DNA of 64,000 bases from a virus. Positions 7,323-26,951 of this stretch are shown here, one piece after another (the first letter of the stretch is position 1; every line of letters begins with the position of its first letter). The stretch is taken from positions 62,001 to 126,000 of the IMG/VR virus record IMGVR_UViG_3300020442_000006, one strand, 5' to 3'. Position numbers and translations under genes: made by a program. Under the pieces are notes generated by a model that was not told where the DNA came from, ran no database searches, and saw only the letters and a list, made by a program, of their open reading frames with translations.

Positions 7323-7997
7323 TTACAATAATGGGATGAGTGAGAATTGATCATCGGGTAGATCGGACTGGGTATGAATATCAAACCCAAGTGTAATACG
7401 AGGTGTTTCAAATTCCTCGTGAACCACCACCCTGTGTTGCCTGTCCCACCCAGGCCCAAAGTAGATATTGCCCACTTCATTCTTTATAGAATAGAGTGGT
7501 TCGCCATCTTGTCTGAACTCGGTCGTTGTGTTGTGCGGTTCAATACTAATATAACCGTGATAATCAAATTTGTGGTCGTGCCAGTTTAAGACATTGTTAG
7601 GATTATGGTAGTTCATCCAACATTGAAACCATAGTGGTTCGTCAGTCTCAAGCGTGGTGCGTACCACAGTTTGAAGATCGCGGTTCAATAACCAGAATAG
7701 CGGACTTGGGGATGTAAGTGCAAATATGTTATAGAATCGATACCCAGAATACTGATTTTTACCCCAATTCTTAATAAAATCCTCATCTTCCTTGCGTTTC
7801 TCTTCATAATTGAATAGACTAGGAAGATTGCCTAGTGTTAACCCCTGATCAGTCAGGGATGAATCGAAACCAGTAAATGTATTTTTGAACAGTCGATATG
7901 CCCTGCCCAGTTGTGTTATCATTTCTTCTTTCTCGTGGATGATACAAGGAGATCTCCATAGAGACCAGTCATCACCCTTCTCAAGTAAAGTTGCCAT
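7323..7997 (-). CDS. 2OG-Fe(II) oxygenase-like protein, 224 aa
   Basis: The C-terminal half has a double-stranded beta-helix signature: NWHDHKFDYHGYISI (putative metal-binding histidines), then GNIYFGPGWDRQHRVV (third ligand His), then an Arg in PRITLGFDI that would bind the 2-oxoglutarate carboxylate. I choose the ATG at 7997 (MATLLEKGDDWSLW), which overlaps the upstream gene by 17 nt, over the in-frame ATG at 8042. It is the last gene of the oxygenase/halogenase operon. The substrate is unknown; the context suggests a protein or peptide. Confidence 0.7.
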   Translation of the reverse strand: MATLLEKGDDWSLWRSPCIIHEKEEMITQLGRAYRLFKNTFTGFDSSLTDQGLTLGNLPSLFNYEEKRKEDEDFIKNWGKNQYSGYRFYNIFALTSPSPLFWLLNRDLQTVVRTTLETDEPLWFQCWMNYHNPNNVLNWHDHKFDYHGYISIEPHNTTTEFRQDGEPLYSIKNEVGNIYFGPGWDRQHRVVVHEEFETPRITLGFDIHTQSDLPDDQFSLIPLL

Positions 7998-8670
7998 AGT
8001 TAGGGTTGTAAGAAGTTCTTGGGTCTGTGGGTGTTTTCTCACTCACATTTATATTTACCACTAAACGTGGTTCGTTTGTTGGATAGGATGAACTGTGAAA
8101 CAGATCTCCCTTGAAAGCAACCGCTCTGCCCTTCTTAGGGGTTACACGTTGCTTTTCTGTCCAAGTATCCTTAGATACCATTGCAGGGTACTCAAAGGCA
8201 TCCTGAGTTCTCTCATTATAGATGATTGTATCTCCATCCGTGTCATTCAGATAGTAGATCACGTTCCAAGAATTAGGGACGTAACTATCAATGTGTGGCA
8301 TTTGTACCTGATTAGAACCCATAGCAGGTACTGCATTTATTCTCATTCGTAGCAGGCATTCAGCACTCAATGCTTCACGGAACTGTAAAGCGAGTGGCAT
8401 AAAACCATTTGTAAGTGTTGAGCAATGTGATTTGTCACCATACTCAATTTCATACAAATAATGTAGGTTAGCGAACCCATTGCGGGGGTCATCAATAAAA
8501 TCAGGAATATCCGTGATTGCTTTATCTTTACGATACCAAGCAAGATCTGGATTGTTTGCACATAATAGTAACCAGTCCTGATATACTGGTGGGATAATGT
8601 TCTCAAAGACGATCACATCATCCAGTTTCTTATATGCTGTATCAAATGGATTGCTGACTGTTAGTTTCAT
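7981..8670 (-). CDS. 2OG-Fe(II) oxygenase, prolyl-4-hydroxylase-like, 229 aa
   Basis: Complete motif set: MPHIDSY (HxD), DLFHSSSYP (distal His) and Arg in PRLVVNINV for 2-oxoglutarate. The stretch NVIYYLNDTDGDTIIYNE between them is typical of phage P4H-type hydroxylases. Its start codon overlaps the upstream stop by one base, so expression is coupled. It closely resembles the operon member at 11333-11866 and the copy at 63446. Confidence 0.85.
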   Translation of the reverse strand: MKLTVSNPFDTAYKKLDDVIVFENIIPPVYQDWLLLCANNPDLAWYRKDKAITDIPDFIDDPRNGFANLHYLYEIEYGDKSHCSTLTNGFMPLALQFREALSAECLLRMRINAVPAMGSNQVQMPHIDSYVPNSWNVIYYLNDTDGDTIIYNERTQDAFEYPAMVSKDTWTEKQRVTPKKGRAVAFKGDLFHSSSYPTNEPRLVVNINVSEKTPTDPRTSYNPNYGNFT

Positions 8671-9314
8671 TACGGTGCTACGTTAAATGTCAGGGTGATA
8701 CGATTGTGTTCACCATTTGTCTCATATCCGTGAGTCATATTGCTCGGGAAGATAACAATATCTCCCTCTGCTGTTGGTACGGTAGCGTCCAACAAATTAA
8801 ATGGTGTCATCCCAGTCTGTTTACATTGCATAATTGGATAGAATGTAGACTGTGTAGTTCTCTTGAACCTGAGTGGTGCGTGCTTCATCGGGTCGTAGTT
8901 AATGAAATAACAACCTGAGTACAAACAATTAGAGAACTCGTGTGGTGCATAGATTGAATTCTGTGATGCTACTTCAATGTGTGAGTCAATCAACTCCATA
9001 GTTGAGAGATCATATTGCATTGATGCTTCATTGATCTGTCTAACAGCGTCCAGAATCGTCTCCTTCACCGTTGCAAGCAAAGGATGATCCAACACATTAT
9101 TCTCTCCTATTTGCGTCACACCGTGGCATATAGACGTGTTAGGTGATTGATGTAGATCATCTTGTGAGCATTGATTGATGAAGTTAGTGATCGCGTTCTT
9201 GTCCCGTTCGTGATTCTCATTTGTGTAGTTTCCCACGGGGTTCATAAACAAACCGTACACGTTGGTTTGTTGGATGCTCTCGAAATCGTCAGATAATTCT
9301 TTAGGGGAATGCAT
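8670..9314 (-). CDS. 2OG-Fe(II) oxygenase superfamily protein, possibly degenerate, 214 aa
   Basis: The C-terminal cupin-like core PHEFSNCLYSGCYFIN ... SNMTHGYETN ... NRITLTFNV aligns with the intact oxygenase at 48703 (SHDHTNSMYSG ... LVHYVPQG ... PRMSLSFNI). At the second metal position the usual His/Asp is replaced by Phe (H-E-F), so the site may be altered or use Glu. Overlaps by one base with both neighbours. Confidence 0.7.
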   Translation of the reverse strand: MHSPKELSDDFESIQQTNVYGLFMNPVGNYTNENHERDKNAITNFINQCSQDDLHQSPNTSICHGVTQIGENNVLDHPLLATVKETILDAVRQINEASMQYDLSTMELIDSHIEVASQNSIYAPHEFSNCLYSGCYFINYDPMKHAPLRFKRTTQSTFYPIMQCKQTGMTPFNLLDATVPTAEGDIVIFPSNMTHGYETNGEHNRITLTFNVAP

Positions 9315-9967
9315 TATGTGTAATAGGGTGAAGTGTTAATCATTGACTGTTCATTCTGAATCCTTTGACTCGCTGTTTCCCAAGGTGCTGCTAACATCGG
9401 ACGACCGTCCCATTTATTGTCAGCGTACCTACCATCTTGATCGACATAGGATACAAATGCCTGTATCTGTAGATCTCCCTGATACTTTGGTCTCCAATGG
9501 AAATCTTTATGTCCACGGAAGATAATCATATCACCTTGATTCATCAATAAGTCATACGATTTACCATCAATTTCTATATAAAAGGGCCAATTAGTCTCAT
9601 CCCTTGTTATACATATATTTCCGACCCATTCGCCACTTGTTCTGTCTCTGTGTCGTACCAGATTAGTGCCTTTGGTATATACTCTAGCATAACTAAATGT
9701 CTGCCATAATTTACAACCAACAGCGTCTTCAATCTGTTTTTTAATTACCTGTCCCATCGCTTCAAAACATACTGGAGAGTACATTGCGAATGCCCCTGGC
9801 ATAATGGGATCGCTTGTGGGACCTGAAGTTGTCGCTTCAATTATGTTTTTAATCATAATGAATTCGTGCTTCAAATGTTCACAAGTTTCTTGTGATAATG
9901 CATTACGAATTCGCCAAAGTTTACCCTTTGCGAACTCTTCAATTTTCTCATCAATAACCACTTCCAT
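9314..9967 (-). CDS. 2OG-Fe(II) oxygenase, 217 aa
   Basis: LVRHRDRTSGEWVGNICI supplies HxD and DFHWRPKYQG supplies the distal histidine; DMIIFRGH precedes it as in prolyl-hydroxylase folds. The residue expected to bind 2-oxoglutarate is less clear (QIQAFVSY). It starts 6 nt after the stop of the preceding gene. Substrate unknown. Confidence 0.8.
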   Translation of the reverse strand: MEVVIDEKIEEFAKGKLWRIRNALSQETCEHLKHEFIMIKNIIEATTSGPTSDPIMPGAFAMYSPVCFEAMGQVIKKQIEDAVGCKLWQTFSYARVYTKGTNLVRHRDRTSGEWVGNICITRDETNWPFYIEIDGKSYDLLMNQGDMIIFRGHKDFHWRPKYQGDLQIQAFVSYVDQDGRYADNKWDGRPMLAAPWETASQRIQNEQSMINTSPYYT

Positions 9968-9973
9968 AACCCA

Positions 9974-10633
9974 TTAATTGTTTACTAGATCGTGAGTAAT
10001 TCCGTGAAAGAATCCCACAATAGTTAGGCGTGAATCGTTGACATCATTTCCGAAGAAATCCATACCACCGTGAAACTTCCTACCATCAAAGATTAAGCAA
10101 CGATTATATCTACTTTCAATACTAATTGAAGTTTGATACATCGAATTACACTCCTCTTTATACTTTTCATATGCTGCTGCCGATTCCTCATCATCCTGAG
10201 CAAGTAATTGTTTCTTGAATTCTTCTTCGAAACCTTGCCCATTAAAATGTGGTGGCACATCGTAGATAGTTGTACCACGATTAGGTACAACACCCTCATT
10301 CAAATAGATAACCATACCTACACCTAAGTGTGGTGGGTCAGAATGAATCCATCCACGTTTGTTGTTACCATCGCATACGTGAAATGCAATATCTGCAATA
10401 TCAAATCCGATGAAAGATGGTAGATACGATACTACTTTACGACATATGATTTCGTGCAAGATAGGGTCAACTGAATCAAGGAGAGTTGATCTCTTCCCAG
10501 GCCAATTACCCTTATTGGGGTGATCATAACACCTCATATATTCTTGCTGTTTCGCTAAGTTAACGACCAACGATGGTGTCTCGAAAAAATTATCGATTAC
10601 GATGGTTGGTACATACTCCTCAACAAATCTCAT
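9974..10633 (-). CDS. 2OG-oxygenase-fold protein, DUF6445-like, 219 aa
   Basis: WIHSDPPHLGVGMVIYLN carries HxD, RKFHGGMDFFG the distal His and SRLTIVGFFH the Arg. The order and spacing match the DUF6445 family, which often sits beside tryptophan halogenases in bacteria (recalled, not searched). A long insert (about residues 130-165) separates the two metal motifs. ATGA overlap with the preceding DUF6065-like gene. Confidence 0.75.
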   Translation of the reverse strand: MRFVEEYVPTIVIDNFFETPSLVVNLAKQQEYMRCYDHPNKGNWPGKRSTLLDSVDPILHEIICRKVVSYLPSFIGFDIADIAFHVCDGNNKRGWIHSDPPHLGVGMVIYLNEGVVPNRGTTIYDVPPHFNGQGFEEEFKKQLLAQDDEESAAAYEKYKEECNSMYQTSISIESRYNRCLIFDGRKFHGGMDFFGNDVNDSRLTIVGFFHGITHDLVNN

Positions 10634-11343
10634 TTTCTAAACCATCTGAAAGGGCATTTCTTTTCTTTCTCTCCAAAGATAATATCCTTGGCAAGAAATG
10701 GTGTGAATTGTTTCACCGATAGACGCTTATGCATCTGTAACAGCATTTCCTGTGGTGGTGCTGCCTTGGTCAACTTGAATGACTCTCTAAGATCGCCTTC
10801 CTTATAGAATGCAAACTTATAAATTGGGTCACCTCGTTTAATTTTGACCTGTTCATTAGGATCACAAATATTGATCCCAAAAGATATAGGTCTGCACCAA
10901 TCAGATAGGTTAAACCAACCGTTTACTAGTGTATAGTTATTATTCCTACTTGTCAATGGGTAGTCTCTCGCTTCCACCCATACACCTTTCTGTTTTGTCC
11001 ACAGCAACAACTGTGGTACTGAGATCTGTAGAGTTTTGATAGGTGGTTCTAAATCTTCTACCTTGAGATATTTCTGGATTTGCTGATCATTAAATTCTTT
11101 ACACTTGACTCCACCCTCATAGATTGTGAATGTCATATCCTTCGGACTGTACATAATGAACTCACGTGAGTTCTTATGTGTCCAAGCAGGGCATTGCATA
11201 TATGGTACGAATTTATTTCCCTCGTACTCATCGATAACTTTCTTTGGTTCAATACCAATACCTTCTAAACTTAGAGGTGAATCCCAACAGTTTAGAACAT
11301 CCTGACCACCGTCATACTGATAGTAAAAGATCTCAATAGTCAT
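10630..11343 (-). CDS. DUF6065-like protein, copy A, 237 aa
   Basis: MTIEIFYYQYDGGQDVLNCW... ends EKKCPFRWFRK. It shares its central region (PPIKTLQISVPQLLLWTKQK and DPNEQVKIKRGDPIYKFAFY) with the operon member at 12350. Both follow the DUF6065 layout: a tryptophan-containing PW/PQ segment, then a Gly/Asp-rich strand region, then a lipocalin-like end. Function is unknown, but the family is typically encoded with halogenases and oxygenases. Overlaps its neighbours by 4 and 11 nt. Confidence 0.6.
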   Translation of the reverse strand: MTIEIFYYQYDGGQDVLNCWDSPLSLEGIGIEPKKVIDEYEGNKFVPYMQCPAWTHKNSREFIMYSPKDMTFTIYEGGVKCKEFNDQQIQKYLKVEDLEPPIKTLQISVPQLLLWTKQKGVWVEARDYPLTSRNNNYTLVNGWFNLSDWCRPISFGINICDPNEQVKIKRGDPIYKFAFYKEGDLRESFKLTKAAPPQEMLLQMHKRLSVKQFTPFLAKDIIFGEKEKKCPFRWFRK

Positions 11344-11866
11344 AATTAAAATTTAATGTCATTCTATTTGTAGTGGTGGTAGGGCAACTCGATGCGTGGT
11401 AAGTAGAACCATCAAAAATAACGACTTTACCCTGTTCTGGTTTTACTCTCCTAGTTTCCTTGTTTTCCTCATCAAAGAACACCGTGTCACCATCACTTGT
11501 GTTCACATAATATATTGCAGTTGTATGTTTGTTGTGTCTGTCAATGTGTGGCATATTGTATCCTGTGCCTGTTGGCAATAGGAGACCACCTTTAATCCTA
11601 TACAGTTCATAATCCTTTGTCTCTACAAATGTGAAGAGAAGAGGCATTATGATATTACAAAACTCTGAGTGAGTACCAGTCTCTGCGTCATAAAACAAAT
11701 GTGCGAACCCTTGACTCCCATTTGCATTAGGGAATCGGTTTCGCACTTCGTCTGTCTCTCTGTATGTGACATCCTTAAGATAACCCCAAGGGAATCCCAC
11801 ATCTTCCATCATTTGTTTGATTCTCATCTGATATACAGGTGGAATCACATTACGAATAATTCGCAT
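11333..11866 (-). CDS. 2OG-Fe(II) oxygenase, prolyl-4-hydroxylase-like, 177 aa
   Basis: Has YNMPHIDRHN (HxD), STYHASSCPTT (distal His) and Arg in NRMTLNFNYDY, with TAIYYVNTSDGDTVFFDEEN between. This is a compact, complete catalytic core. It lies between the two DUF6065-like genes. Probably hydroxylates a protein or peptide residue; substrate not known. Confidence 0.85.
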   Translation of the reverse strand: MRIIRNVIPPVYQMRIKQMMEDVGFPWGYLKDVTYRETDEVRNRFPNANGSQGFAHLFYDAETGTHSEFCNIIMPLLFTFVETKDYELYRIKGGLLLPTGTGYNMPHIDRHNKHTTAIYYVNTSDGDTVFFDEENKETRRVKPEQGKVVIFDGSTYHASSCPTTTTNRMTLNFNYDY

Positions 11867-12036
11867 TAGTAACTCTGCTCACACTCCTCTAAATTTTCTT
11901 CACCACATTTCTCATATGAAATGCTGTCAGTATGATACGAATGATAAATCCTACCCCATACTACCTCGAACTCTTCCTCATTCAAGTTCTTGAATAAGAC
12001 TTTACCGTTGTAGTAAACGTGATAAGATTCTGCCAT
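11866..12036 (-). CDS. Small conserved cyanophage protein, 56 aa
   Basis: MAESYHVYYNGKVLFKNLNE... has the compact pattern of small phage proteins (Y-x-V-Y-x-N-G..., L-N-E-E-E-F) with two C-terminal cysteines. Stop and start codons overlap its neighbours by one base on each side, so it is a bona fide operon member. Confidence 0.6.
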   Translation of the reverse strand: MAESYHVYYNGKVLFKNLNEEEFEVVWGRIYHSYHTDSISYEKCGEENLEECEQSY

Positions 12037-12353
12037 TAATCATCCTCCTGATTTTCTTCTGATACGTTTCCGATAATTTCCATTTCAGTATCCTCAGCGT
12101 CAAGTTCTGCCATTGGCATCCCGACTTCATCTTCCTCACCCATAATGTCTCGTTTCACAATAAAGAGAGCATCGATAGCACCCTCCAATCTAGATCTCTG
12201 AGAATATGCATCAGATCTCTTTTGAAACTCGATAGTGGTGACACCATACGGATTCAGTTTCTTGTTTGCGAAATCCGTATCGTATTTTTCAATGATCTTG
12301 TCAACTTCCTCTTTTTGCAAGTGAAAGTTTTGAATCAATTCATTAATGTTCAT
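12036..12353 (-). CDS. Hypothetical acidic coiled protein, 105 aa
   Basis: MNINELIQNFHLQKEEVDKI... is helical with heptad-like leucines for about 70 residues, then a strongly acidic tail (EEDEVGMPMAELDAEDTEME). It overlaps the upstream DUF6065-like gene by 4 nt. Function unknown; the acidic tail could contact a basic partner in the same operon. Confidence 0.6.
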   Translation of the reverse strand: MNINELIQNFHLQKEEVDKIIEKYDTDFANKKLNPYGVTTIEFQKRSDAYSQRSRLEGAIDALFIVKRDIMGEEDEVGMPMAELDAEDTEMEIIGNVSEENQEDD

Positions 12354-13135
12354 CGGTCAATTCCGTTACTGTGGTGTTTGATCGCCCTCATAGCACGAGC
12401 AACCTTGTGTGATACATCGTCATCATTAGGATACTCTGCCTTCAAAGAATAGTTGAAAGCATTTTCAAGATCCCAATCTTCAGTCGTTGCATTATCTATA
12501 CGAATATCATACCAACCTTTGTCAAGTGTTGCTCTGGGCATAGGTATGAACTGTGCTAGTGGTGTCCCTGCTTTGATTAGAGTTTCACCATCTAATACGT
12601 GCCAGATAAGTTGCACGTTAACTTGCATAGCAAATCTTGGATCATAGATCCCTGCAGTTGCTTCGAAACGGGACTCATTGTTCCAGTACACGGGTGTCTG
12701 CATAAAGATTAGATCGTCACTTGCTCTCACTCTCCACGGTGTTTCGAGTTTAATGATGTGTGCAAGTGAATCACGTGGACTGTCCACCAAAGGTACAGTT
12801 TGGTCAGGTGGATGATCTCCAATAAAGTTCGCGTGTCTCGTGAACATTGTAGGGATTTCATACTCATAACCAACTCCATCACCGTTTGTACGAATGATGA
12901 AATCCATTGGTGCGACTACAACATAACCCATACGAGTGATCTGTTTCAACCCTGGGCAGTTTGCCACATTCATATTTCCACGAAAGGGGCATTTCTTTTG
13001 TCGTTCTTCTTTCGACATCCAACGTCTTCTTACCGAACTCGTTGGTATCAAAGGATAGTTCTCGACCAACCCTGGTTCTAGAGAGAAGAACCTCAACCAC
13101 GGTTTCTTCTTTTTATTCCTCAGGAAGTTGAACAT
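12350..13135 (-). CDS. DUF6065-like protein, copy B, 261 aa
   Basis: MFNFLRNKKKKPWLRFFSLE.... The ATG at 13135 overlaps the halogenase end by 22 nt; the in-frame ATG at 13213 is less likely. CPFRGNMNVANCPGLKQITR is followed by MGYVVVAPMDFIIRTNGDGV, then IIKLETPWRVRASDDLIFMQ and the Gly/Asp strand region, matching copy A and the DUF6065 layout. Two Cys-Pro elements could bind metal. Directly follows halogenase 2, suggesting that it acts with it, possibly as a substrate-binding partner (inference). Confidence 0.6.
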   Translation of the reverse strand: MFNFLRNKKKKPWLRFFSLEPGLVENYPLIPTSSVRRRWMSKEERQKKCPFRGNMNVANCPGLKQITRMGYVVVAPMDFIIRTNGDGVGYEYEIPTMFTRHANFIGDHPPDQTVPLVDSPRDSLAHIIKLETPWRVRASDDLIFMQTPVYWNNESRFEATAGIYDPRFAMQVNVQLIWHVLDGETLIKAGTPLAQFIPMPRATLDKGWYDIRIDNATTEDWDLENAFNYSLKAEYPNDDDVSHKVARAMRAIKHHSNGIDR

Positions 13136-14765
13136 TGTCTTCACCATAGATGTTTTCAAGTAAGAATTCATAATGTGTTGGGCATTCATCAGACTTGATA
13201 AACTCATCAACACTCTTGATATAGTCTAGACGCTCATTTCCAATATGAGTGAGTTCATCAATGTTTCCATATCCATTAAACCTAGTTCCCAATCTCAATC
13301 CCATACCTGCAGCGATGAAGTTCATACCTGCAATGTTTGCTCTGAGTGGTCTACCAAGATCAAGAATATCTCCCATCCTCTCGTACTCATCGTTCACCTT
13401 GATGTTACCATCAAACTGTTCGAGCATATACTCACATCTTTGTGATGCGTGTCTCCAATATGGATTATCAGTTCGTTTGCTCAATGCATAGTGCATTGCT
13501 ACGAAGTGACTGAACCCAATCACCTCACGTTGTGCAGCATAGTTGAACCATTGACGCTCAATACCTGATACATAACCCTGACGACGATTAAGAACATCGA
13601 CCAGTCTAAGGATATTCTCGTGAGTTGTCAACAGACCAGTGGATTCTAGTGGTTCAATGAAACCATATGACATCCCGATTGCTACACAATTCAACTCCCA
13701 CGCTTTCTCTCTATATCCGTGCTTGATGTCAATAGACTGGATTTCATACTCATCAGGTTCCAGATCGAATTCTTCATCAATCCACATCTCGAATTCCTGT
13801 CTCGCCTCATTTTCCATAGCGAAACGTGACGACCAACAGTATCCAACTCCGATCCTATCCCACAACGGAATAGTCCACATCCATCCATTATTTGCACCAC
13901 GACAGTCTGTCACATTGTGCATCTTTTCCTTACGTTGTTTCTGTGATGTGTAAGGAATGCGAGCAAAGAATGCTTTGTCGTTTGGTAGATATTTCTCGAA
14001 ACTAATATGACGTACTGCCATCATTTCCTCAATGAGTGCACCCTTAAATCCTGTGCAGTCAATGAAGAGATCGCCTTGTACCCCGATTGTCTTTTTATCT
14101 GCTGCTAGTTTTACTGCAAGTTGTTTGATGACTCTGTTACTTTGGGCGGGAGATCCACCTGCCATAACATCCTTGACCATTCCTCGTACATCACCTGTGA
14201 TGTGTGTGAATCTATCCTGTGATGCAAACGGATAGCATACATCAGTCTTCAAGTATTCTGCGAATCGATCAGCATCAATATGGTAGGCAGTATCACTAGC
14301 AAAGTCAAAATCACGAATCCTCCCATCTTCGTTACCGTATTCTTTATTATGTTCTGCCATACAGGTGTTACCTGCCAAGTAATACTTAGCAAACAACTCT
14401 GGCGGGAACTCATCAGGATATAATCTTTGAAGATCAAAGAAATCTTGAATATCGTTCTTACAATTATATAGATCTGCAGGTCCAAATGGATACTGGAATG
14501 TAGATCCCTTCTCACGGAAGTCTGTGAACTGAATACTGTTCTTATATGTTGCTCCTACCTTCGGCATCCAGTCTTCGTCTTTAAGACCAAGTGAACGCAA
14601 ATACTTATTAAACTGTCCGATAGTTGATTCACCAACTCCGACTGGTTTATGCTTCTTGGATTCGACTAGTACAACACTAATCCAAGGGCATAATTTCAAT
14701 AGTGCTGCTGCTGTCATCCATCCAGATGACCCACCGCCAACCACTACAACATTGTTAACTTGCAT
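13113..14765 (-). CDS. Flavin-dependent tryptophan halogenase-like protein, intact motifs, 550 aa
   Basis: N-terminal FAD-binding VVVGGGSSGWMTAAAL (GxGxxG, residues 6-21), the lysine in GATYKNSIQF near residue 74 that corresponds to the catalytic Lys of PrnA/RebH, the WxWxIP halogenase signature in NGWMWTIPLWDR (near residue 290), and GFIEPLESTGL, the Glu/Ser-Thr region of the chlorination site. All diagnostic motifs are present, so an active FADH2-dependent halogenase is plausible; it would need host or phage reduced flavin. The second half of a tandem pair, 2 nt after halogenase 1. Confidence 0.9.
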   Translation of the reverse strand: MQVNNVVVVGGGSSGWMTAAALLKLCPWISVVLVESKKHKPVGVGESTIGQFNKYLRSLGLKDEDWMPKVGATYKNSIQFTDFREKGSTFQYPFGPADLYNCKNDIQDFFDLQRLYPDEFPPELFAKYYLAGNTCMAEHNKEYGNEDGRIRDFDFASDTAYHIDADRFAEYLKTDVCYPFASQDRFTHITGDVRGMVKDVMAGGSPAQSNRVIKQLAVKLAADKKTIGVQGDLFIDCTGFKGALIEEMMAVRHISFEKYLPNDKAFFARIPYTSQKQRKEKMHNVTDCRGANNGWMWTIPLWDRIGVGYCWSSRFAMENEARQEFEMWIDEEFDLEPDEYEIQSIDIKHGYREKAWELNCVAIGMSYGFIEPLESTGLLTTHENILRLVDVLNRRQGYVSGIERQWFNYAAQREVIGFSHFVAMHYALSKRTDNPYWRHASQRCEYMLEQFDGNIKVNDEYERMGDILDLGRPLRANIAGMNFIAAGMGLRLGTRFNGYGNIDELTHIGNERLDYIKSVDEFIKSDECPTHYEFLLENIYGEDNVQLPEE

Positions 14766-14767
14766 AA

Positions 14768-16258
14768 CTAAGAATCTTCTGTCTTATATAGGGTAGTTTG
14801 ATAATACTCCAACGGTGTTGGATAGTCTGGATCACGTTTAGTTAGGTGATCCATAAACATATCGTCAAAGTCGGGTGATTCGTAACCATCGTGTGCTTTG
14901 ATGACATCGAACCTGTCAGGAATTATATCATATTCATACCCACCTAGCAAGTATAATGCACCCTCAGACAGGTAGTTTAGATTTCCAATCTGTTCGAATC
15001 TCTGTGTCAACACATCAGGGAACTCTGATTGAAAGTTCATTTGATTATAGTGTTTCCAGAATGGTGTGTCATCCCTAGGACTTAGACAATAGTGTGCCAA
15101 TACGAAATCCTTGAATGACTGTAGTCTTCGCTTGGATCCCCAGTTGAATTGTTCTCTGATAAAACCATTGTAGTTGTCCCTCTCTTTAGGAAGAACCTGT
15201 ATCAGATTGAATAAGAACTCGTGTACTGAGTATAGTCCACCTGATTCTAGTGGTTCAATGAAACCACCTGCCAATCCAATAGACACTACATTCTTCTTCC
15301 ATATCTCCTTCCTTACACCTGTAGGGAACTCAAGGAATCTGAATTCCTGTTCATCACCTACACCTAAATGCTGTTTGAATTCTGTTAGTGCATCCTCTTT
15401 GGATTGATGACGGGAAGAGAATACATAACCCGTTCCAATTCGTGACCACGTGGGTGCTCTCCATACCCATCCACTGCTCATTCCTGTGCAGTTTGTGTAT
15501 GCAACTAATTCTTTTGCTTTGTCCTTATATGGTATTCTCGTTGTCCACGCTGAGTCACAACACAATTCATCTACACCACAAATATCTGAGTTCCACGCTT
15601 CCCACTCGGATCCTACTTCATTGCTAAGGATCGCAGCAAAACCTGTGCAGTCTATAAAAAGGTCTGCATCGTGCCAATCGCCACTAGAAACGCGAACTCT
15701 GCTAATCCCATCCACGCAGGATTCAATCTCGCGGACTGTATCTTCAATAAGTTTAACACCTTTAGGAATTGCATAGTTGTGTTTTAGATATTCTGCAAAG
15801 GAAATAGCGTCGAAATGGTAACCAACGTTAAAATGAGTGAGATCTGGGATAAGTTTGCCATTTTCGGCACCGCGTACTGTGTCTGAATATATCAGACCAA
15901 ACGTCATACTGTCAATGTGTCCAACCTTTCTCCAAGTGTAGTAATCAGCAACAGATGCAGGACCTTCAGTCTTGCCGAATGGGTAATGAAAAGGACCCTT
16001 CGGATTGAAGTTCTCGAACCGTACACTGTGCTTATACGTTGCGTCACACTTAGGCATCCAGTCCTCATCCTTGAGACCAAGATACCTGACAAATGTATTA
16101 AAAAATTGTGTTGTCGCTTCTCCCACACCAATTCGAGGTGTAGTAGGAGATTCGATCAACACAATCTCTTTTGTATTACCAAAATGTTTCGCTAGAACAC
16201 TAGCGGTCATCCACCCTGCACTGCCACCACCGACAATACAGATTTTATGTAGTTGCAT
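14768..16258 (-). CDS. Flavin-dependent tryptophan halogenase-like protein, variant signature, 496 aa
   Basis: Same layout as the neighbouring halogenase: CIVGGGSAGWMTASVL at the N-terminus, DATYKHSVRF with the catalytic-type Lys, and GFIEPLESGGL. The WxWxIP signature reads SGWVWRAPTWSR, with Ala for Ile, and the EPLES motif is followed by Gly-Gly rather than Thr-Gly. It may be an active enzyme with different specificity or a flavin-binding partner. Starts 6 nt downstream of the 172-aa structural-type gene, so it shares its transcript. Confidence 0.85.
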   Translation of the reverse strand: MQLHKICIVGGGSAGWMTASVLAKHFGNTKEIVLIESPTTPRIGVGEATTQFFNTFVRYLGLKDEDWMPKCDATYKHSVRFENFNPKGPFHYPFGKTEGPASVADYYTWRKVGHIDSMTFGLIYSDTVRGAENGKLIPDLTHFNVGYHFDAISFAEYLKHNYAIPKGVKLIEDTVREIESCVDGISRVRVSSGDWHDADLFIDCTGFAAILSNEVGSEWEAWNSDICGVDELCCDSAWTTRIPYKDKAKELVAYTNCTGMSSGWVWRAPTWSRIGTGYVFSSRHQSKEDALTEFKQHLGVGDEQEFRFLEFPTGVRKEIWKKNVVSIGLAGGFIEPLESGGLYSVHEFLFNLIQVLPKERDNYNGFIREQFNWGSKRRLQSFKDFVLAHYCLSPRDDTPFWKHYNQMNFQSEFPDVLTQRFEQIGNLNYLSEGALYLLGGYEYDIIPDRFDVIKAHDGYESPDFDDMFMDHLTKRDPDYPTPLEYYQTTLYKTEDS

Positions 16259-16264
16259 ACCAAA

Positions 16265-16783
16265 TTAGAGTTCTTCGTAGGTTCTTCCCCAGTTAGAGTA
16301 TCTCTCCCAACAAGGTTGTTCTTGTGTTGAGAGTTTGCAGGGTCTGCTAGTAGCAGGTTCTACGTTGTCAGACATAAATTCTGCAATTTCTTCCTCTGTC
16401 ATCGTGGGATCCATTGGTTCCTCAACTGATGAAGGTGAAGTTGTGTTTTCTTTAACTGTCTTGACGTGATTATACCAAAGAGCATCGTCTGCTGTCAACG
16501 CTCTGCCTGCTGCGAGGTCTTTGTAGAGCATATCCAACTGTGCTCCCACCTCACCATATGCAACTCTACGTGTAGTAGCAGGATCTGCATATGTTTCTGT
16601 TCTCTTGACCCAGATCATATCCTCTGCCGAGGGTGACCACTCAAGTGTCCAAACCTTAGTAATATCGTCAGGTGCATTCACCCACATCTGTGCACAACCA
16701 CGACCAAGGAATAGTGCGTATTCCTCCCCTGGTTCTACGATGTCAGCGACATACCCTGTGAAATCCATCAATGCTTTTTTCAT
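16265..16783 (-). CDS. Possible tail-fibre-associated protein, 172 aa
   Basis: MKKALMDFTGYVADIVEPGE... contains a segment YGEVGAQLDMLYKDLAAGRA followed by W-x-x-H-V-x-x-V-K, a pattern common in small phage tail or fibre-assembly proteins. The acidic C-terminal third includes TMTEEEIAEFMSD. It lies between the glycine-rich adhesin and the halogenases with gaps of 9 and 6 nt. Confidence 0.55.
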   Translation of the reverse strand: MKKALMDFTGYVADIVEPGEEYALFLGRGCAQMWVNAPDDITKVWTLEWSPSAEDMIWVKRTETYADPATTRRVAYGEVGAQLDMLYKDLAAGRALTADDALWYNHVKTVKENTTSPSSVEEPMDPTMTEEEIAEFMSDNVEPATSRPCKLSTQEQPCWERYSNWGRTYEEL

Positions 16784-16792
16784 CGTGACCCC

Positions 16793-17593
16793 TTATTTGT
16801 AGTTGATAACAGTAACAACACCATACTTACCGTTTGAACCACGGAAAGAGTGGAAGTGACCACCTGAACCACCAGAACCATATGCTGAGTGATCTTGGTG
16901 ATTATGACTGAAGTTTCCACCATTTGGCCAACCTGCAGCAACAGATCCTCCAAAGTGAGAAGGTCCACCAGTTCCACCACCGTGAGCAGCGTGGGACTGT
17001 CCACCACCACCCCAGATGTTCAAGTCTCCACCAGAACCATTTCTGCCGAGACCACCTGAGTGTGAGTTATTTCTTGCAGCACCGTGTCCTCCACCTGCTG
17101 ACATATAAGGACCGAATGAAGATGATCCTCCATCACCACCACGGTTGAAGTACCAAGTACCACCGCCACCACCACCAATAGTGATACCAACGGATGAAAT
17201 GTTTGCCACAGACATCACACGTTCGGAGTAACCTCCTGCACCGCCTGATTCACCGTGACCCGCACCTCCTCCACCGCCGCCTTGTACGCGAACGTGGATA
17301 TACTTGACACCACTTGGTCTGTTCCAAGTACCATTACCTGTCCAAACCTGTAGTGATGAAATGTTTTCTGAACTTACGTCTGTCCAAGACATTGACGAAC
17401 CGTTCGTGGTAAGAAACTTACCACTCTGACCTGAGACACTAGGCACAATCTGACTAGATGAACCTGACATCGTACCGTTAACGGTCAAGTTACTAACAGT
17501 CAGCGTACCATTAGCAGTAATATTACCAGATGCGAGGGTAAAACCGCCAATGCCAGACAGGTCTCTAATAGATGCAACTTTGAGTGTACTCAT
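16793..17593 (-). CDS. Glycine-rich tail fibre/adhesin, 266 aa
   Basis: The N-terminal 90 residues have the short beta repeats of a virion fibre (LTVSNLTVNGTMSG). From about residue 105 the chain is glycine-rich with runs such as GGGGGGAGHGESGGAGGYS, interspersed with His, Ser and Asn, recalling polyglycine-II adhesin tips of T-even-like phages. A late promoter motif lies 29 nt upstream (17622-17629). Its transcript probably continues into the halogenase/oxygenase operon. A role in host recognition is inference from composition and position. Confidence 0.75.
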   Translation of the reverse strand: MSTLKVASIRDLSGIGGFTLASGNITANGTLTVSNLTVNGTMSGSSSQIVPSVSGQSGKFLTTNGSSMSWTDVSSENISSLQVWTGNGTWNRPSGVKYIHVRVQGGGGGGAGHGESGGAGGYSERVMSVANISSVGITIGGGGGGTWYFNRGGDGGSSSFGPYMSAGGGHGAARNNSHSGGLGRNGSGGDLNIWGGGGQSHAAHGGGTGGPSHFGGSVAAGWPNGGNFSHNHQDHSAYGSGGSGGHFHSFRGSNGKYGVVTVINYK

Positions 17594-17621: not shown

Positions 17622-17629
17622 TATTTATA
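17622..17629 (-). promoter_or_regulatory. Late promoter motif TATAAATA
   Basis: Exact T4-type late promoter core on the minus strand, 29 nt upstream of the adhesin gene. It is the nearest recognisable promoter upstream of the 7.3-16.8 kb genes. Confidence 0.65.
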
Positions 17630-17631
17630 CA

Positions 17632-18165
17632 TTATGTAGGTGGCACAGGGCGTTCGAAACCAGAAGGGAGATAAGGTTGGTCTCTTTCCCATTGCTCATC
17701 ATCAGGATAGTATCCTTCGTGATACACAACTGTGTTCGCAGGATTCTCTCTCTGAGTAGACGGATCCTGATAATCAGGAACTTCAATCGTCTCTCTATGA
17801 ATCATTGATTTAGTATCGTCTCCTGCCCACATTTGAACAGAATACTTAACCTCTGTATTTAGCACAGGTAGTGATACTGTTAGTTGATACTTATCATCAC
17901 TTGATAAGATGTTATCAAGTTGTGTCGTAAAGATCTGAAATCCAGAAGGTTCAGAGACTGAGATACCAACTCTTAACCCATCCTCCCATTTCAGTTTGTA
18001 TTCTCCAAATTTCCTTACGCTCATTTTAATAGTGACATCTCTAGATTTAATCGTAGAGAATCCACTACCAATACTTGTGTCTTCTCCCAAATCGAAGACT
18101 ACAGCAGCAACGTTATACTTTTCGTATTGATCGTCTGCTGTTTTTGGGTCGTAAATTGTTGCCAT
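17632..18165 (-). CDS. Hypothetical virion-region protein, 177 aa
   Basis: MATIYDPKTADDQYEKYNVA... is beta-rich in the middle (VKYSVQMWAGDDTKS) with a proline-rich acidic end. It lies between two glycine-rich fibre proteins with gaps of 2 nt upstream and 38 nt downstream. Probably a structural or assembly protein; no family recognised. Confidence 0.55.
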   Translation of the reverse strand: MATIYDPKTADDQYEKYNVAAVVFDLGEDTSIGSGFSTIKSRDVTIKMSVRKFGEYKLKWEDGLRVGISVSEPSGFQIFTTQLDNILSSDDKYQLTVSLPVLNTEVKYSVQMWAGDDTKSMIHRETIEVPDYQDPSTQRENPANTVVYHEGYYPDDEQWERDQPYLPSGFERPVPPT

Positions 18166-18167
18166 AA

Positions 18168-19151
18168 TTAACTTACAATGTAACCAAGAGTGGCAATACC
18201 TGATCCACCATTAGGTTGTGCATAACCCTGTCTAAACTGAGAAGAGTTATCCCCTGGGGTATTCCAGTCACCATTACTTATATAACCACCAACGTGGTAT
18301 GGAGAAGAAATCCAAGAATTACCTCCACCACCACCTGCGGCACCGTTACAGTCACAACCTGGGTTTCCACCACAGTTACCTGCATTGTAACCGCCGCCAC
18401 CGCCGCCTCCACCTGAAGCGTCGTTCCCTGGTCTGCCACACTCATCACCGTTGGTATCACTGTTACCACCTGCTGATCCACCCTGTGAACCACACTGTCC
18501 GTTTGCTCCTCTTTGTCCACCTGCTCCACCATTACCTGCACCAGAGCAACCTTCACGACCTCCACCTCCGCCGCCTGCACCTGCGACTTGAAGGATGTGA
18601 TCACTCGACATACTTACTCCAAGTGGTGAGAAAAGCATAGTTGCTGCTCCTCCTCCACCTCCTCCTGCTGAACATCCTCTGCAAGAAGCGTGTGTACCAC
18701 GTCCCCCTGAACCATAACCAGATCCATTGGTACCGTTTCCACCGCCACCCCAACATCCGTAGCATCCGTTTCCTCCTCCACCGCCGCCACCGACGTAGAT
18801 TCTCATTCTGCCACCTGCATTAACCCAAGAATCTTGAACTGTAATCTCACCATATGACATACCACCTGCACCACCGTTGGCACCACCTTGACCGCCGCGG
18901 CCACCTGCAGCACCCCACATCCAAACGTATAGAGTTGCACCTGCACCACCACGAATGTATAGACTATTATCTCCTGTGCTTGTAAATCTGTGGAACCTGA
19001 AGTTCAATCCGTTATATGCTTGATCGAATACAGTTCCGTTATCATCAGCAATAATTCTGATAGCACCACCGCCACCTGCTCCACCACCACGAGAACATAG
19101 TGTGGACGACAGGGGATTGAACATCCCAGAATAACCAATGTTAGTTGACAT
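18168..19151 (-). CDS. Glycine- and cysteine-rich adhesin-like protein, 327 aa
   Basis: After about 85 residues the chain is dominated by glycine blocks (GGGGGGNGCYGCWGGGGNG; GCSGAGNGGAGGQRG). They are punctuated by at least ten cysteines in CxxC or isolated positions, which could form disulphides or bind metal outside the cell. The composition is like polyglycine-II sandwich adhesins. It starts 2 nt after the preceding fibre gene. Role in receptor binding is inferred. Confidence 0.7.
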   Translation of the reverse strand: MSTNIGYSGMFNPLSSTLCSRGGGAGGGGAIRIIADDNGTVFDQAYNGLNFRFHRFTSTGDNSLYIRGGAGATLYVWMWGAAGGRGGQGGANGGAGGMSYGEITVQDSWVNAGGRMRIYVGGGGGGGNGCYGCWGGGGNGTNGSGYGSGGRGTHASCRGCSAGGGGGGAATMLFSPLGVSMSSDHILQVAGAGGGGGGREGCSGAGNGGAGGQRGANGQCGSQGGSAGGNSDTNGDECGRPGNDASGGGGGGGGYNAGNCGGNPGCDCNGAAGGGGGNSWISSPYHVGGYISNGDWNTPGDNSSQFRQGYAQPNGGSGIATLGYIVS

Positions 19152-19153
19152 AA

Positions 19154-20020
19154 TTATGCAGGATAATATCCAGTAGCAGAACCAAAGATAGTGAATGAAT
19201 GTTGATTGGTATTTGGTGTGTAAACCAATGCGAATGACACAACCACATAGTTATCATCATCACCCCAAGCGGGTTCGTTACCACCTGACCAGTAGATTGT
19301 TGTTCCTTGTCCGTTAACGTTAACTGAGGTAGGAATACCCTCACCACCTGCGTTCTTGATAGCAACAGTCATACCATATGCGTGTGCACCATCAGTAGGA
19401 ACGTTGGTGAAACTGATAGTAAAGTTACCACCACCAGTTTTGTTGATCCAGATAGAGTTTGAATTATTGTAATCGTGAGTTAGAGAACCACTTGTTGTGT
19501 AATAGTAAACGCTCTCTTTTGTTTCACCGTAATGAAGTGTACCAGTGAATGTAGCGTGCTGTGATTCAATATCAACAAATTCAGCGTATGACAGGTCATC
19601 GTCACCGAGCAATGTCCAAGATGCACCGTTCTCGATAGTAACTGTATAACCTGAGTCAATTTGGATAGGACCCGCTGAGAATCCGTTTGTGAACTCTACA
19701 CCACCGTTTGCAGTAGGACCGACAGTTAAGTTCTCTTGAATATTTGTACCGTTCGTTCTAATGATAGAACCTTCACCAATAGCAGGACCACCTCCACCAA
19801 CGTCTGTCCACCCAGGGTTACCTTGGTTGGCATCTTGTTTGTAGATCTGTGCCATATCCTCGGTGTTATTATACACCAAGGTACCAAACGCGGGTGTACC
19901 TAGAGAGTTAACCTGCGATTGGTTCAGAGAGGGGAGATTTAATTGTTCGGAAATAGACCACGCTTCGACCAAACCTCTGGTCGTTGCTTGAATCTGATTA
20001 CCATTAATCTTTGTTGACAT
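19154..20020 (-). CDS. Tail fibre protein, 288 aa
   Basis: MSTKINGNQIQATTRGLVEA... contains PAFGTLVYNNTEDMAQIYKQ and a triple-beta region (EFTNGFSAGPIQIDSGYTVT) typical of myovirus fibre proteins. Preceded by a TCTAAATA late motif (20042-20049). Likely part of the distal or short tail fibres. Confidence 0.65.
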   Translation of the reverse strand: MSTKINGNQIQATTRGLVEAWSISEQLNLPSLNQSQVNSLGTPAFGTLVYNNTEDMAQIYKQDANQGNPGWTDVGGGGPAIGEGSIIRTNGTNIQENLTVGPTANGGVEFTNGFSAGPIQIDSGYTVTIENGASWTLLGDDDLSYAEFVDIESQHATFTGTLHYGETKESVYYYTTSGSLTHDYNNSNSIWINKTGGGNFTISFTNVPTDGAHAYGMTVAIKNAGGEGIPTSVNVNGQGTTIYWSGGNEPAWGDDDNYVVVSFALVYTPNTNQHSFTIFGSATGYYPA

Positions 20021-20041
20021 AGGATCCTACCGTTCCTGTTC

Positions 20042-20049
20042 TATTTAGA
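20042..20049 (-). promoter_or_regulatory. Late promoter motif TCTAAATA
   Basis: TCTAAATA on the minus strand, 22 nt before the 288-aa fibre gene; it overlaps the stop region of the 1191-aa gene. Confidence 0.55.
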
Positions 20050-23000
20050 TGACTAGTTCTCTGATCTGGATCACATCACCAGTAGAGGGTGGAGTACCGA
20101 TTGAGAAGTCAACAGCGTTGCCGCTAACTTGATAGTCAGTGCCTGGGATTTGGGCGACACCATTCAAGAACACAAGAACAGAGAAAGAGGTATGCCCTGG
20201 GGAAATAGCAAAGGATGATGTTGACCCGTTACCATTGTATGTGACCCCGTTGTTATTGTTAGCAAGACCAGTTGCAAGTCTATACTTATCAGCAGCACCA
20301 TACTTACCAGTGACATCAAGGTCACCAGAAATGAATGTGTTACCACTGATCTTCATTCTATTGGAAGCATCAGGTGCCATTCCAATACCATAGTTAGTAA
20401 CACCTGAGAACCTGCGTGCAGTAATAGGTGAGGTATCTGTCATACCAAACTTATACCATACACCTGCATCATAGATCCAACCAAGTGAATCACCTGCCTG
20501 CCAGTCAATGTTATAGATAATATCACCATCGTTAAATGCTAATGCACCATCAATATCTGGTTGACCTGACCCATCATCTTCTGCAAGGAACGTCTGCTTT
20601 AGTACAGTTCCATCGTCGTTGGAGTATGTTAACTTCAGAGTCTGAATATTTTCCTGAGAAGTAATTCTCTTCTGGAATGTAACAGGACCTGAGAATACAG
20701 ATTCCAACTGGTTAGATGCACCACCGATAACAGTTAGTTTGTCGGTAAGAACGATCTCGGAGAAGGTCTCAATAGTTGTACCTTCTTCACCCAAGACGTT
20801 CAACTGTGCAATATCTTCGTTAGTGATCTGACCTGTAACTGGGTTAATAACTTGGTTACCAACGAATAGTTCACCGTCAGAGTTAACACCTGAATAGTAT
20901 GCCACACCTGCTGCTTCCTTCAGGGACTGAGACAGTCTGACCTGTGCGGGTGATAGAACTTCCACCTGTGTAGATGGGAATGCAGTTGAGTAGTTCCCTG
21001 GTCCGAATCCAAGGTATTCAAACGTGTGACCAGATGCTCTAAGAATAGAGTATCTTCTTAGTTCACATAGGATAGGAGCAACAGAGTTATCAGCATTCAA
21101 CTTCAGAGGAATCTTTCTCTCTTCTTCATCACCAAGACGTGCAGTAACAACAATACTGTTCAGTGTATTAGATGTTGTGTTATATCCTAAGTTATTTTCC
21201 TGTTCAAGTAAGAAGAACTGAGTTGTCTCTTTAGTGATAGAGAGTTTAGTATCTTCATTTGGTGTAGGTGTAGCACCATCAGTTGTTGTAACAACACCAA
21301 GCACATCATTGTCAGCGACTGATACAGCAGGACCTGGGTCTGCTACTGGGTTGTCTCTGTCAAATGCAGGGTATAGATCAACTGTCTGCTGTGAGAATGC
21401 GAAGTCATCAAAGTTTGAAGTTGAAGGTGCAACTGATGCATTCAGGAATGTCAGATAGTAGATACCATCCTTCAGACCTCTTTCGAACTCTTGATATGTT
21501 TCTACTTCGTAGATGTAATATGTTTTGTCGTATGCAGGTGAGTTAGTCTCTGAAGATCTAGGTTGTACCACGAAACCAGTAATGGGTTGCCTAGGAATCG
21601 GGAACGCATCCTTGTCCAGTACATATCTAAATCTGTAAATTCTATCCTTAAGGTCTCTTGCGTCGGGAACTCTTCGGATGAATGATGTAGGTGTGAATCC
21701 AAGATTTTGATACTGACTGTTAGCGATTAGAGTTGTATAGATGTCGTTCTGGTTAGAATCTACCTGTAGATACCAGTTAGACTGGTTGGCATCATACTTG
21801 ATAGGTGAGTTGTCATCACCTGGGGATGTACCAGTAACGTCTTGTCCTGAAGGATCAATCTTTGCTGTGTGTGTTGTAGGAGCATTTGCACCAGATGCGA
21901 TCAACAGCACATTGATCTTGTCAGGCAATGTGGGTGAATCTCTTCTAGCACCAATGGTATAACCCTGAATCTTAGAGGGTGGTTTGGCATTCTCGTTTGT
22001 ATAACCGTAGAGATATAACTTAGTTGGGTCTGCTGCTGCACGAATCTTATTAATATCAAATGTAACCCAGTTGATAGAGATCTCAGGTACGTCAGAAATA
22101 TCTTTTGGTGGGATTACGTGAGTAATCTGTCCTGCCTTATCTTTTGTAAATGCTGCTGACTTGAATCCTTTTGATCGTAGCGACGTGTTTCCGAAGTTTG
22201 AGTTACTGTTAGTAATAGAAAGGTCACCACCGCTGTCAGAAAAGAAATGGTCACCAAATCCCACAGCAAACACAGACACAACCTGAATGAAACTGTCGTT
22301 GGATGCTTTAATGTGGACGTGACGCCATCCTTTACGGTATTTGCATAGACCGTTAATGTGTGCACCAGATCCAGATGCCTGTGCTTCATAGTTACCTGTT
22401 GATGGATTATAAAGTACAAATGCACGGTCATCCTTTTGTAGAGAGATACCCGTGAACTGTGCCACAACCATTGATTTGAAACCAGTTGCCTTCGAACCAT
22501 CGGCGTGCATACCACAAATACCCCACACTGAGCGGAGAGAGCAGTTGAACACATATGGTGACGCTGAGTCAACAGTATCAATCTCAACTTTAACCAGTAC
22601 GTTAGAACCAATAGCATTACCTGACGGTTCTGCTGACATCTGATAAGTAAACTGGTTACCCTGTGCTGACGTTACAAGGAATGATCCGTTGTATAGGTTA
22701 GCATCTGCTTCAGTTGGTCCCGTGACACCTGAGATATTAACAGCAACACCCACAGAGAAACCGTGGTTGACAGGGTTATCCTGAATATCAACTGTGAAAG
22801 CAGTTGCAGTTTGACCATTACGGATGATCTGAGAGACTCTAAATTCGTCAGAAATCGGACCAACGATTCTGTTTTCCTCGACCCTTGCCTGCAACTGGTC
22901 TTGTGCGATAGTTCCAGATGTGTCAGGAATTGTTGCGTATGCCTTCGAGATCTTCTGGTAGTAGAGATCAAGGTCATTAACCGTAGCGTATTCAAAGCAG

Positions 23001-23620
23001 GTAATCTTGTGGTGTGAGAAGTTTGGAGCAATAGTATCTGCAACGTCTCCTCTATAATATACCCCGTTATTGTCCCCGTCGAAGAAGGACATCTGCCAGA
23101 AGTAAGTACCACCAGTCAGTCTGAAGATTGCTGACGCTGTTGGTTCGTTTGCACCTGTGATACCAAGTGATGCGTTGATAGTAGGATATGGAACATACTT
23201 AGGAATGATCTTAGTTCTTCTAAGGTCAGATCCAACAACAGAACAACCCCTTGGGACGATGATTCCACCGTCTACGGAGTTGAACTTGTAAAGAATATTG
23301 TTTGGTGAGGTGAGATCGAAGTTAGTGTTCTCGTCAAATGGTGTGATCTCGTTGAAATTACTTGTCCCTGGTCTATTATCTAAAACGTACTCTGAAGGAT
23401 ATAGGTATATACTGAATGCGTCAAATTCGTCATTACTAAGTCCAACTCTATATGAAAATCTAGATACCTCAAGGAAGGCACGTTGCAACGTCTTAAAAGG
23501 ACGCAACGCTGAGTTACCTCGGTTGTCGTAAGCATCCGATGCATCAAAGTCGTCGGGGTTGACGTAAATAATACGACCAGTCCTCGACGTGATGATATTT
23601 TTAAGACGTGTTAGTGCCAT
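20045..23620 (-). CDS. Large virion structural protein, beta-helix N-terminus, 1191 aa
   Basis: The N-terminus (GRIIYVNPDDFDASDAYDN, then ALRPFKTLQRAFLEVSR) has the VNP...PFKTLQ signature of pectate-lyase-like right-handed beta helices; the C-terminus is fibre-like. The size and position, among fibre and hub genes, fit a baseplate wedge-fibre connector or long tail-fibre subunit of cyanomyoviruses. Preceded by an AATAAATA late motif 28 nt upstream. The exact T4 counterpart (gp10-like or fibre) is unclear. Confidence 0.7.
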   Translation of the reverse strand: MALTRLKNIITSRTGRIIYVNPDDFDASDAYDNRGNSALRPFKTLQRAFLEVSRFSYRVGLSNDEFDAFSIYLYPSEYVLDNRPGTSNFNEITPFDENTNFDLTSPNNILYKFNSVDGGIIVPRGCSVVGSDLRRTKIIPKYVPYPTINASLGITGANEPTASAIFRLTGGTYFWQMSFFDGDNNGVYYRGDVADTIAPNFSHHKITCFEYATVNDLDLYYQKISKAYATIPDTSGTIAQDQLQARVEENRIVGPISDEFRVSQIIRNGQTATAFTVDIQDNPVNHGFSVGVAVNISGVTGPTEADANLYNGSFLVTSAQGNQFTYQMSAEPSGNAIGSNVLVKVEIDTVDSASPYVFNCSLRSVWGICGMHADGSKATGFKSMVVAQFTGISLQKDDRAFVLYNPSTGNYEAQASGSGAHINGLCKYRKGWRHVHIKASNDSFIQVVSVFAVGFGDHFFSDSGGDLSITNSNSNFGNTSLRSKGFKSAAFTKDKAGQITHVIPPKDISDVPEISINWVTFDINKIRAAADPTKLYLYGYTNENAKPPSKIQGYTIGARRDSPTLPDKINVLLIASGANAPTTHTAKIDPSGQDVTGTSPGDDNSPIKYDANQSNWYLQVDSNQNDIYTTLIANSQYQNLGFTPTSFIRRVPDARDLKDRIYRFRYVLDKDAFPIPRQPITGFVVQPRSSETNSPAYDKTYYIYEVETYQEFERGLKDGIYYLTFLNASVAPSTSNFDDFAFSQQTVDLYPAFDRDNPVADPGPAVSVADNDVLGVVTTTDGATPTPNEDTKLSITKETTQFFLLEQENNLGYNTTSNTLNSIVVTARLGDEEERKIPLKLNADNSVAPILCELRRYSILRASGHTFEYLGFGPGNYSTAFPSTQVEVLSPAQVRLSQSLKEAAGVAYYSGVNSDGELFVGNQVINPVTGQITNEDIAQLNVLGEEGTTIETFSEIVLTDKLTVIGGASNQLESVFSGPVTFQKRITSQENIQTLKLTYSNDDGTVLKQTFLAEDDGSGQPDIDGALAFNDGDIIYNIDWQAGDSLGWIYDAGVWYKFGMTDTSPITARRFSGVTNYGIGMAPDASNRMKISGNTFISGDLDVTGKYGAADKYRLATGLANNNNGVTYNGNGSTSSFAISPGHTSFSVLVFLNGVAQIPGTDYQVSGNAVDFSIGTPPSTGDVIQIRELVI

Positions 23621-26943: not shown

Positions 26944-26951
26944 TATTTATA
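26944..26951 (-). promoter_or_regulatory. Late promoter motif TATAAATA
   Basis: Exact T4-type late core on the minus strand, 28 nt before the 441-aa fibre gene. Confidence 0.6.

Follow-up and report, generated by a model that had tools for sequence, protein, structure and literature searches.

We analysed a 64,000-nucleotide (nt) stretch of viral DNA (the window; bases 62001-126000 of the 187,493-base IMG/VR virus record IMGVR_UViG_3300020442_000006), in which genes for two predicted halogenases and six 2-oxoglutarate (2OG)-Fe(II) oxygenase-like proteins follow a gene for a putative glycine-rich adhesin of the tail fibre (Table 1). Because the window carries psbA, encoding the photosystem II protein D1 (57427-58515), the virus is a cyanophage. 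A preliminary description of this DNA had placed the genes in one translationally coupled operon, and every gene that it named was found on the minus strand where it had put it (16783-7323). The operon is real: the run from 16783 to 7323 is continuous, its junctions being overlaps or gaps of 0-6 nt, because an apparent 169-nt hole at 12036-11866 is occupied by a 56-amino acid (aa) open reading frame (ORF; MAESYHVYY...), which was absent from the first ORF list and overlaps both of its neighbours with a TAATG-type junction. The spacing in front of the run was also as described, with 9 nt between the adhesin gene and the 172-aa gene and 6 nt between the latter and the gene of halogenase A (halA). 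Terminator-like sites in the region numbered 7 while 8.4 were expected by chance, in agreement with the earlier statement that no terminator interrupts it. The ratio of nonsynonymous to synonymous substitution rates (dN/dS) of the operon genes for which it could be computed against two relatives was 0.04-0.21, indicating purifying selection, and therefore the operon is kept under selection.

Exploring the sequence upstream of the adhesin gene, we found the T4-type late promoter motif TATAAATA that had been noted there, at the same position as in relatives. It is a match to the consensus, the start site being unmapped. Among IMG/VR loci, the 100 nt preceding an adhesin copy contained NATAAATA at 78/78 and those preceding the halogenase at 0/78, against a background of 2.2% of random 100-nt stretches; this distribution supports the suggestion that the enzyme genes would be transcribed late, jointly with the adhesin. 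Late-type motifs TATAAATA occur five times in the window versus 2.3 expected by chance, the others being at 26944, 42780, 52096 and 52840. We also considered as a separate early promoter a perfect sigma70-like site within the 172-aa gene (16498-16469); it is absent in relatives (L008 and L009) and probably arose by chance.

Table 1. Features of the operon and of the fibre genes in front of it (positions in the window)
Feature	Position	Strand	Remarks
Upstream fibre block	17632..23620	-	1191-aa fibre (phrog_529), 288-aa, 327-aa glycine-rich and 177-aa proteins
T4-type late promoter motif TATAAATA	17622..17629	-	36 nt before adhesin ATG; same position in relatives
266-aa predicted glycine-rich fibre-tip adhesin, phrog_863	16793..17593	-	PF21722 E 3e-6, 27.7 bits (cut-off 24.3); proposed substrate
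172-aa protein, phrog_1787	16265..16783	-	Proposed adhesin chaperone, from position
Halogenase A, predicted flavin-dependent, 496 aa	14768..16258	-	PF04820 E 7e-101; Lys76 and Glu335 invariant
Halogenase B, predicted, 550 aa, VirX1 orthologue group	13113..14765	-	Match to VirX1 (PDB 6qgm) E 6e-146, full length; tree
287-aa protein, phrog_7084	12350..13213	-	True start probably further in, giving a shorter overlap with halB
105-aa protein	12036..12353	-	Relatives in syn9 and S-CREM1, same place
56-aa ORF, phrog_2626 (E 2e-20)	11866..12036	-	Closes apparent gap
Predicted 2OG-Fe(II) oxygenase, phrog_274	11333..11866	-	HxD...H...R intact; Pfam/PHROG
237-aa protein, phrog_17480	10630..11343	-	DUF6065 kinship unsupported
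DUF6445-type 2OG-like oxygenase, phrog_1644	9974..10633	-	PF20043 E 1e-12, 48.8 bits (cut-off 24); HxD...H...R intact
2OG-like oxygenase, phrog_2954 ('ferrochelatase')	9314..9967	-	HxD...HxR invariant; Arg two residues after His
2OG-FeII_Oxy_5-type protein	8670..9314	-	Degenerate first motif HEF
Predicted 2OG-Fe(II) oxygenase, phrog_274	7981..8670	-	HxD...H...R intact; Pfam/PHROG
2OG-like oxygenase, phrog_2696	7323..8042	-	HxH...H...R invariant

The two proteins that had been called halogenases matched PF04820 well above its cut-off of 21 bits (339 bits for A; 290 bits, E value 3e-86, for B). Halogenase B is related to VirX1 over its full length, and halogenase A aligns with VirX1 (PDB 6qgm) over the first 411 residues. 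The GGGxxGW flavin motif and the catalytic residues K76 and E335 (numbering of A) were invariant in 17 phage halogenases, and at the WxWxIP position B carries WMWTIP and A carries WVWRAP. Judged from the profile matches, the flavin motif and the invariant Lys and Glu, A and B are predicted flavin-dependent halogenases whose catalytic residues are intact. A tree of 49 halogenases placed the B type, with the VirX1 group, in a clade of 11 located solely beside fibres (support 98/90). The A type belonged to a fibre-linked group of four (support 100/97) whose sister group included the unlinked S-H35 enzyme, the fibre-region enzyme of Sf-CH11 and a bacterial sequence. The N-terminal sequence of the B-type enzyme of syn9 (syn9B) matches VirX1 as printed in the PDB. 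An extra, very divergent halogenase-like ORF was observed on the opposite strand at the cassette end of two loci (L012/L033, 19060-20577, minus strand).

All six proteins described as 2OG-Fe(II) oxygenase-like showed Pfam or PHROG matches as well as conserved metal- and 2OG-binding residues, the full triad being present in five of the six. The protein encoded at 9314-8670 lacks the second metal ligand (HEF; relatives have HxH) and its gene is missing in the nearest relatives (L003 and L008), and it may therefore be inactive; from its sequence we consider it probably impaired. We rejected the PHROG names 'ferrochelatase' (phrog_2954), 'DNA endonuclease V' (phrog_274) and 'minor coat protein' (phrog_1644), which the conserved 2OG-type metal motifs contradict, as well as the use of the 9967-9314 family as a general marker of glycine-rich adhesins, given that a glycine-rich ORF lay upstream in only 5/34 testable loci without the window-type adhesin. 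Cyanophage 2OG enzymes have been treated as serving DNA repair or nitrogen signalling (PMC3037559, PMC9146016), and the oxygenases of the operon might accordingly act on 2-oxoglutarate pools (NtcA signalling) or in DNA repair. We hold this to be extremely improbable, as neither 5-6 divergent paralogues with differing motif types nor a late adhesin promoter is needed to consume 2OG, and the halogenases would be left unexplained.

The label 'DUF6065-like', given earlier to the products of 13213-12350 and 11343-10630, was not confirmed. Neither protein had a Pfam match, hhalign against true DUF6065 (PF19541) returned a probability of about 1% (E values 0.045 and 0.079), a PDB profile search gave nothing significant, and an AlphaFold2 (AF2) model built from four sequences was unusable (pLDDT 35). 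In IMG/VR loci seeded with phrog_7084, a halogenase lay within 4 kb upstream in 59 of the 63 that were testable. The bacterial neighbourhood given in the preliminary description, in which halogenases accompany DUF6065, DUF6445 and oxygenase-like proteins, held in part for DUF6445, which was found in 14/20 halogenase-bearing genomes and adjoined a halogenase ORF at two of four examined loci of 3.7 kb, but not for DUF6065, which was found in only 3/20 such genomes with no halogenase within those 3.7-kb loci.

The 266-aa protein matched the PHROG annotation 'tail fiber assembly' (E value 1e-55). Its AF2 model, built from 28 sequences, had a pLDDT of 78, and the best Foldseek match of this model was the fibre of cyanophage Pam3 (7ypx_A; E value 4.7e-8, probability 1.00, TM 0.56-0.59). 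According to the Pam3 report, the receptor is recognised by the glycine-rich end of the fibre protein gp24, its tip, which folds with the help of a dedicated chaperone, gp25 (PMC9608196). The model thus predicts that the 266-aa protein is a glycine-rich, receptor-binding fibre tip of the Pam3 gp24 type, and the 172-aa protein, for which the PDB held no significant sequence match, probably chaperones it, by analogy of position with gp25. Trp70, Trp90, Tyr148, His178 and His235 were invariant across 28 adhesins, and in 16 adhesins the C-terminal domain was 3-8% histidine, compared with 1.1% for the remaining large ORFs of the window. The 327-aa glycine-rich protein (18168-19151), encoded two genes upstream of the adhesin and kept in syn9 and S-WAM1, contains cysteine and is poor in histidine (1.2%).

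The specific link to the fibre adhesin proposed for these enzymes was borne out by a neighbourhood survey of cultured phages and IMG/VR loci. In syn9, Syn10, P-TIM40, S-RIM44, Sf-FR1 and S-CREM1 the order was adhesin (1-3 copies), 172-aa relative, halogenase or halogenases, usually a phrog_7084 protein, and oxygenases; the cassette order was also present in S-WAM1, P-RSM6 and S-SZBM1, with a phrog_7084 relative undetected. The gene of VirX1 itself sits within the adhesin-linked block in Syn10/syn9. An adhesin detectable by tblastn was present in 19 cultured phage records, effectively about eight genera or species groups because the records are related, and a halogenase was present in all of them (19/19); 453 phage records had the neighbouring 1191-aa fibre, and only 70 had any halogenase. 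From IMG/VR we took the best 80 adhesins by similarity (at least 51% identity; 35 clusters at 95% identity, 16 at 80%), 70 of which were testable, having at least 2.5 kb of downstream sequence. Directly behind the adhesin a 172-aa relative (150-170 aa) and then a halogenase were found at all 70 testable loci, and both genes were found at 78/80 overall, the median gaps along adhesin, 172-aa relative and halogenase being 10.5 and 25 nt. Adhesin and halogenase are strictly linked, as these comparative tests strongly support.

It could be argued that the fibre end is a hypervariable insertion site, where halogenase and oxygenase genes pile up as cargo without acting on the fibre; 2OG genes are indeed scattered across these genomes, beyond the fibre end, and the number of oxygenases differs among phages. 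This explanation appears unlikely in view of the strict order of adhesin, 172-aa gene and halogenase at 70/70 testable loci, the confinement of the B-type clade to fibres and the preservation of the block in two different backbones, i.e. behind the 1191-aa fibre in syn9, P-TIM40, S-WAM1, P-RSM6 and S-CREM1, and behind a fibre gene of ~10.5 kb just before the neck genes in S-RIM44 and Sf-FR1. The occurrence of glycine-rich proteins upstream of halogenases elsewhere speaks against it too: in halogenase-seeded IMG/VR loci without the window adhesin, a same-strand glycine-rich ORF lay within 4 kb upstream in 19/35 and downstream in 5/24, and none was seen on the other strand. The plan recurs in unrelated viruses: at L245 (3377-10497) and L262 (1514-8860), a fibre gene is followed by genes for a glycine-rich protein, a 137-156-aa protein, at least one 2OG protein, a halogenase and more 2OG proteins, with at least five 2OG-like genes flanking the halogenase; the glycine-rich protein there is unrelated to the window adhesin (PF21722, E value 2e-19 in L262). 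Loci seeded with this second glycine-rich type had a 2OG gene downstream in 17/22 testable cases and a halogenase in 2/22, indicating that oxygenases are the commoner partner there and that the halogenase is constant only with the window adhesin type. A search seeded with one unrelated glycine-rich protein yielded too few relatives.

Together, the data moderately favour a cassette, expressed late, whose products build the receptor-binding tip of the tail fibre and modify it chemically. On one late message the adhesin would be made first, then the 172-aa putative chaperone and then the enzymes. Before the fibre is attached or assembled, the halogenases would act on aromatic side chains of the adhesin (Trp, Tyr or His) and the 2OG oxygenases would hydroxylate other residues of it, and a tip surface changed in this way would adjust binding to the envelope of the cyanobacterium in seawater. 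For this chemistry the enzymes would depend on the host for reduced flavin and on halide, which seawater supplies in abundance. The strict genetic link to one adhesin type points to that adhesin as a specific, testable candidate substrate, and we also count in favour of its tailoring the unusually open active site of VirX1 (PMC8407142).

Several observations weigh against tailoring of the adhesin. We infer its modification from the genes, and the substrates reported for VirX1 are small aromatics only (PMC8407142). Relatives of the A-type halogenase lie away from fibres in S-H35 and S-MbCM6, and in S-RIM2 (L481, 3268-5267) a distantly related adhesin (83 bits to the profile) occurs with a 172-aa-type relative but with no halogenase. 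The IMG/VR adhesin set, chosen by similarity, is silent on remoter adhesins. Finally, virion proteomics of S-SZBM1 lists homologues of the 1191-aa and 288-aa proteins but neither of the two adhesin homologues and none of the enzymes (PMC9146016). We regard this absence as weak counter-evidence because halogenated Trp, Tyr or His peptides would escape a standard search, and all nine tryptic peptides of 7-30 aa of one S-SZBM1 adhesin homologue contain Trp, Tyr or His; low copy number and true absence of the adhesin fit equally well. In S-RIM2, a 2OG-like gene annotated as tail fiber protein lies just upstream of the distant adhesin, at the same place in the genome.

In previous work, cyanophage halogenase genes have been regarded as serving antibiotics or metabolites or as auxiliary genes of a general kind (PMC2984593, PMC7824862, PMC10452541), and the enzymes of the operon may instead make or halogenate a small molecule during infection, such as a signal, an antibiotic or a secreted metabolite, their place at the fibre end being only a slot for late expression. 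In vitro, VirX1 accepts many small aromatics as substrates for halogenation (PMC8407142), Iyer et al. proposed a cluster for a halogenated metabolite or for capsule decoration in S-SSM6a (PMC7824862), and protection by an antibiotic was speculatively suggested for syn9 (PMC2984593). Nevertheless, we found no scaffold-building enzyme (nonribosomal peptide synthetase, polyketide synthase, ligase or aminotransferase) among the operon proteins by Pfam/PHROG, the halogenase is always behind one adhesin type, and the conserved late motif would leave little time to make and use a metabolite, so that we consider a small-molecule product improbable. Another reading is that the enzymes act on proteins or surface molecules of the host, perhaps preventing superinfection or altering the envelope ahead of lysis, which would suit late expression and the broad substrate range of VirX1. 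We find it very unlikely, as no transport gene was noticed among the operon genes (secretion signals were not tested) and it would not account for the one-to-one pairing of the enzymes with an adhesin type.

Tailoring of the adhesin would address two questions, namely what viral halogenases act on in nature and what role the many 2OG oxygenases of cyanophages play. More tentatively, and with slightly less than even confidence, we propose that marine phages own dedicated enzyme sets for halogenating and hydroxylating their receptor-binding fibre tips after translation, a general maturation system for adhesins that occurs with two or more unrelated types of glycine-rich tip, and that viral halogenases of the VirX1 type naturally serve to tailor adhesins. 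If so, the recognition of hosts by phages would rest on chemistry added after translation in addition to sequence, common viruses of the ocean would contain halogenated amino acids, and these enzymes would offer candidate tools for halogenation at the protein level.

Of the systems already known, the nearest is VirX1 of Syn10, to which halogenase B is a full-length relative (E value 6e-146) and whose own gene in Syn10/syn9 lies in the corresponding block beside the adhesin. Descriptions of VirX1 present it as a free biocatalyst for iodination, and we found no report of its natural substrate or of a tie to the adjacent adhesin; nor did our literature search, which mostly left subscription papers outside so that an earlier mention is possible, return a paper tying cyanophage halogenases or 2OG enzymes to an adjacent adhesin. 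Pam3 shares the fibre tip gp24, the best structural match of the adhesin model, and a small gene behind it, gp25, to which the 172-aa gene corresponds as candidate chaperone; it differs in that modifying enzymes are not mentioned in the accessible part of its report, and in that the resemblance of the 172-aa protein to gp25 is one of position. The ten-gene cluster of S-SSM6a (Iyer et al. 2021, PMC7824862) likewise combines a cyanophage halogenase with 2OG enzymes, but it includes carbamoyltransferases, a HemK-like methylase and phosphatases, whereas the window operon is without these and sits on fibre genes. PrnA, RebH and Thal belong to the same family and have the same catalytic Lys and Glu as the window halogenases, but their substrate is free tryptophan and their pathways lead to antibiotics, and no such pathway was seen in the operon. 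That such enzyme classes can act on ribosomal peptides or virion proteins is known from the tailoring of ribosomally synthesized and post-translationally modified peptides, as by the lanthipeptide Trp halogenase MibH, and from the mimivirus collagen hydroxylase L230. The window differs from both in that its proposed target is neither a leader-peptide nor a collagen substrate, but the receptor-binding tip of a phage.

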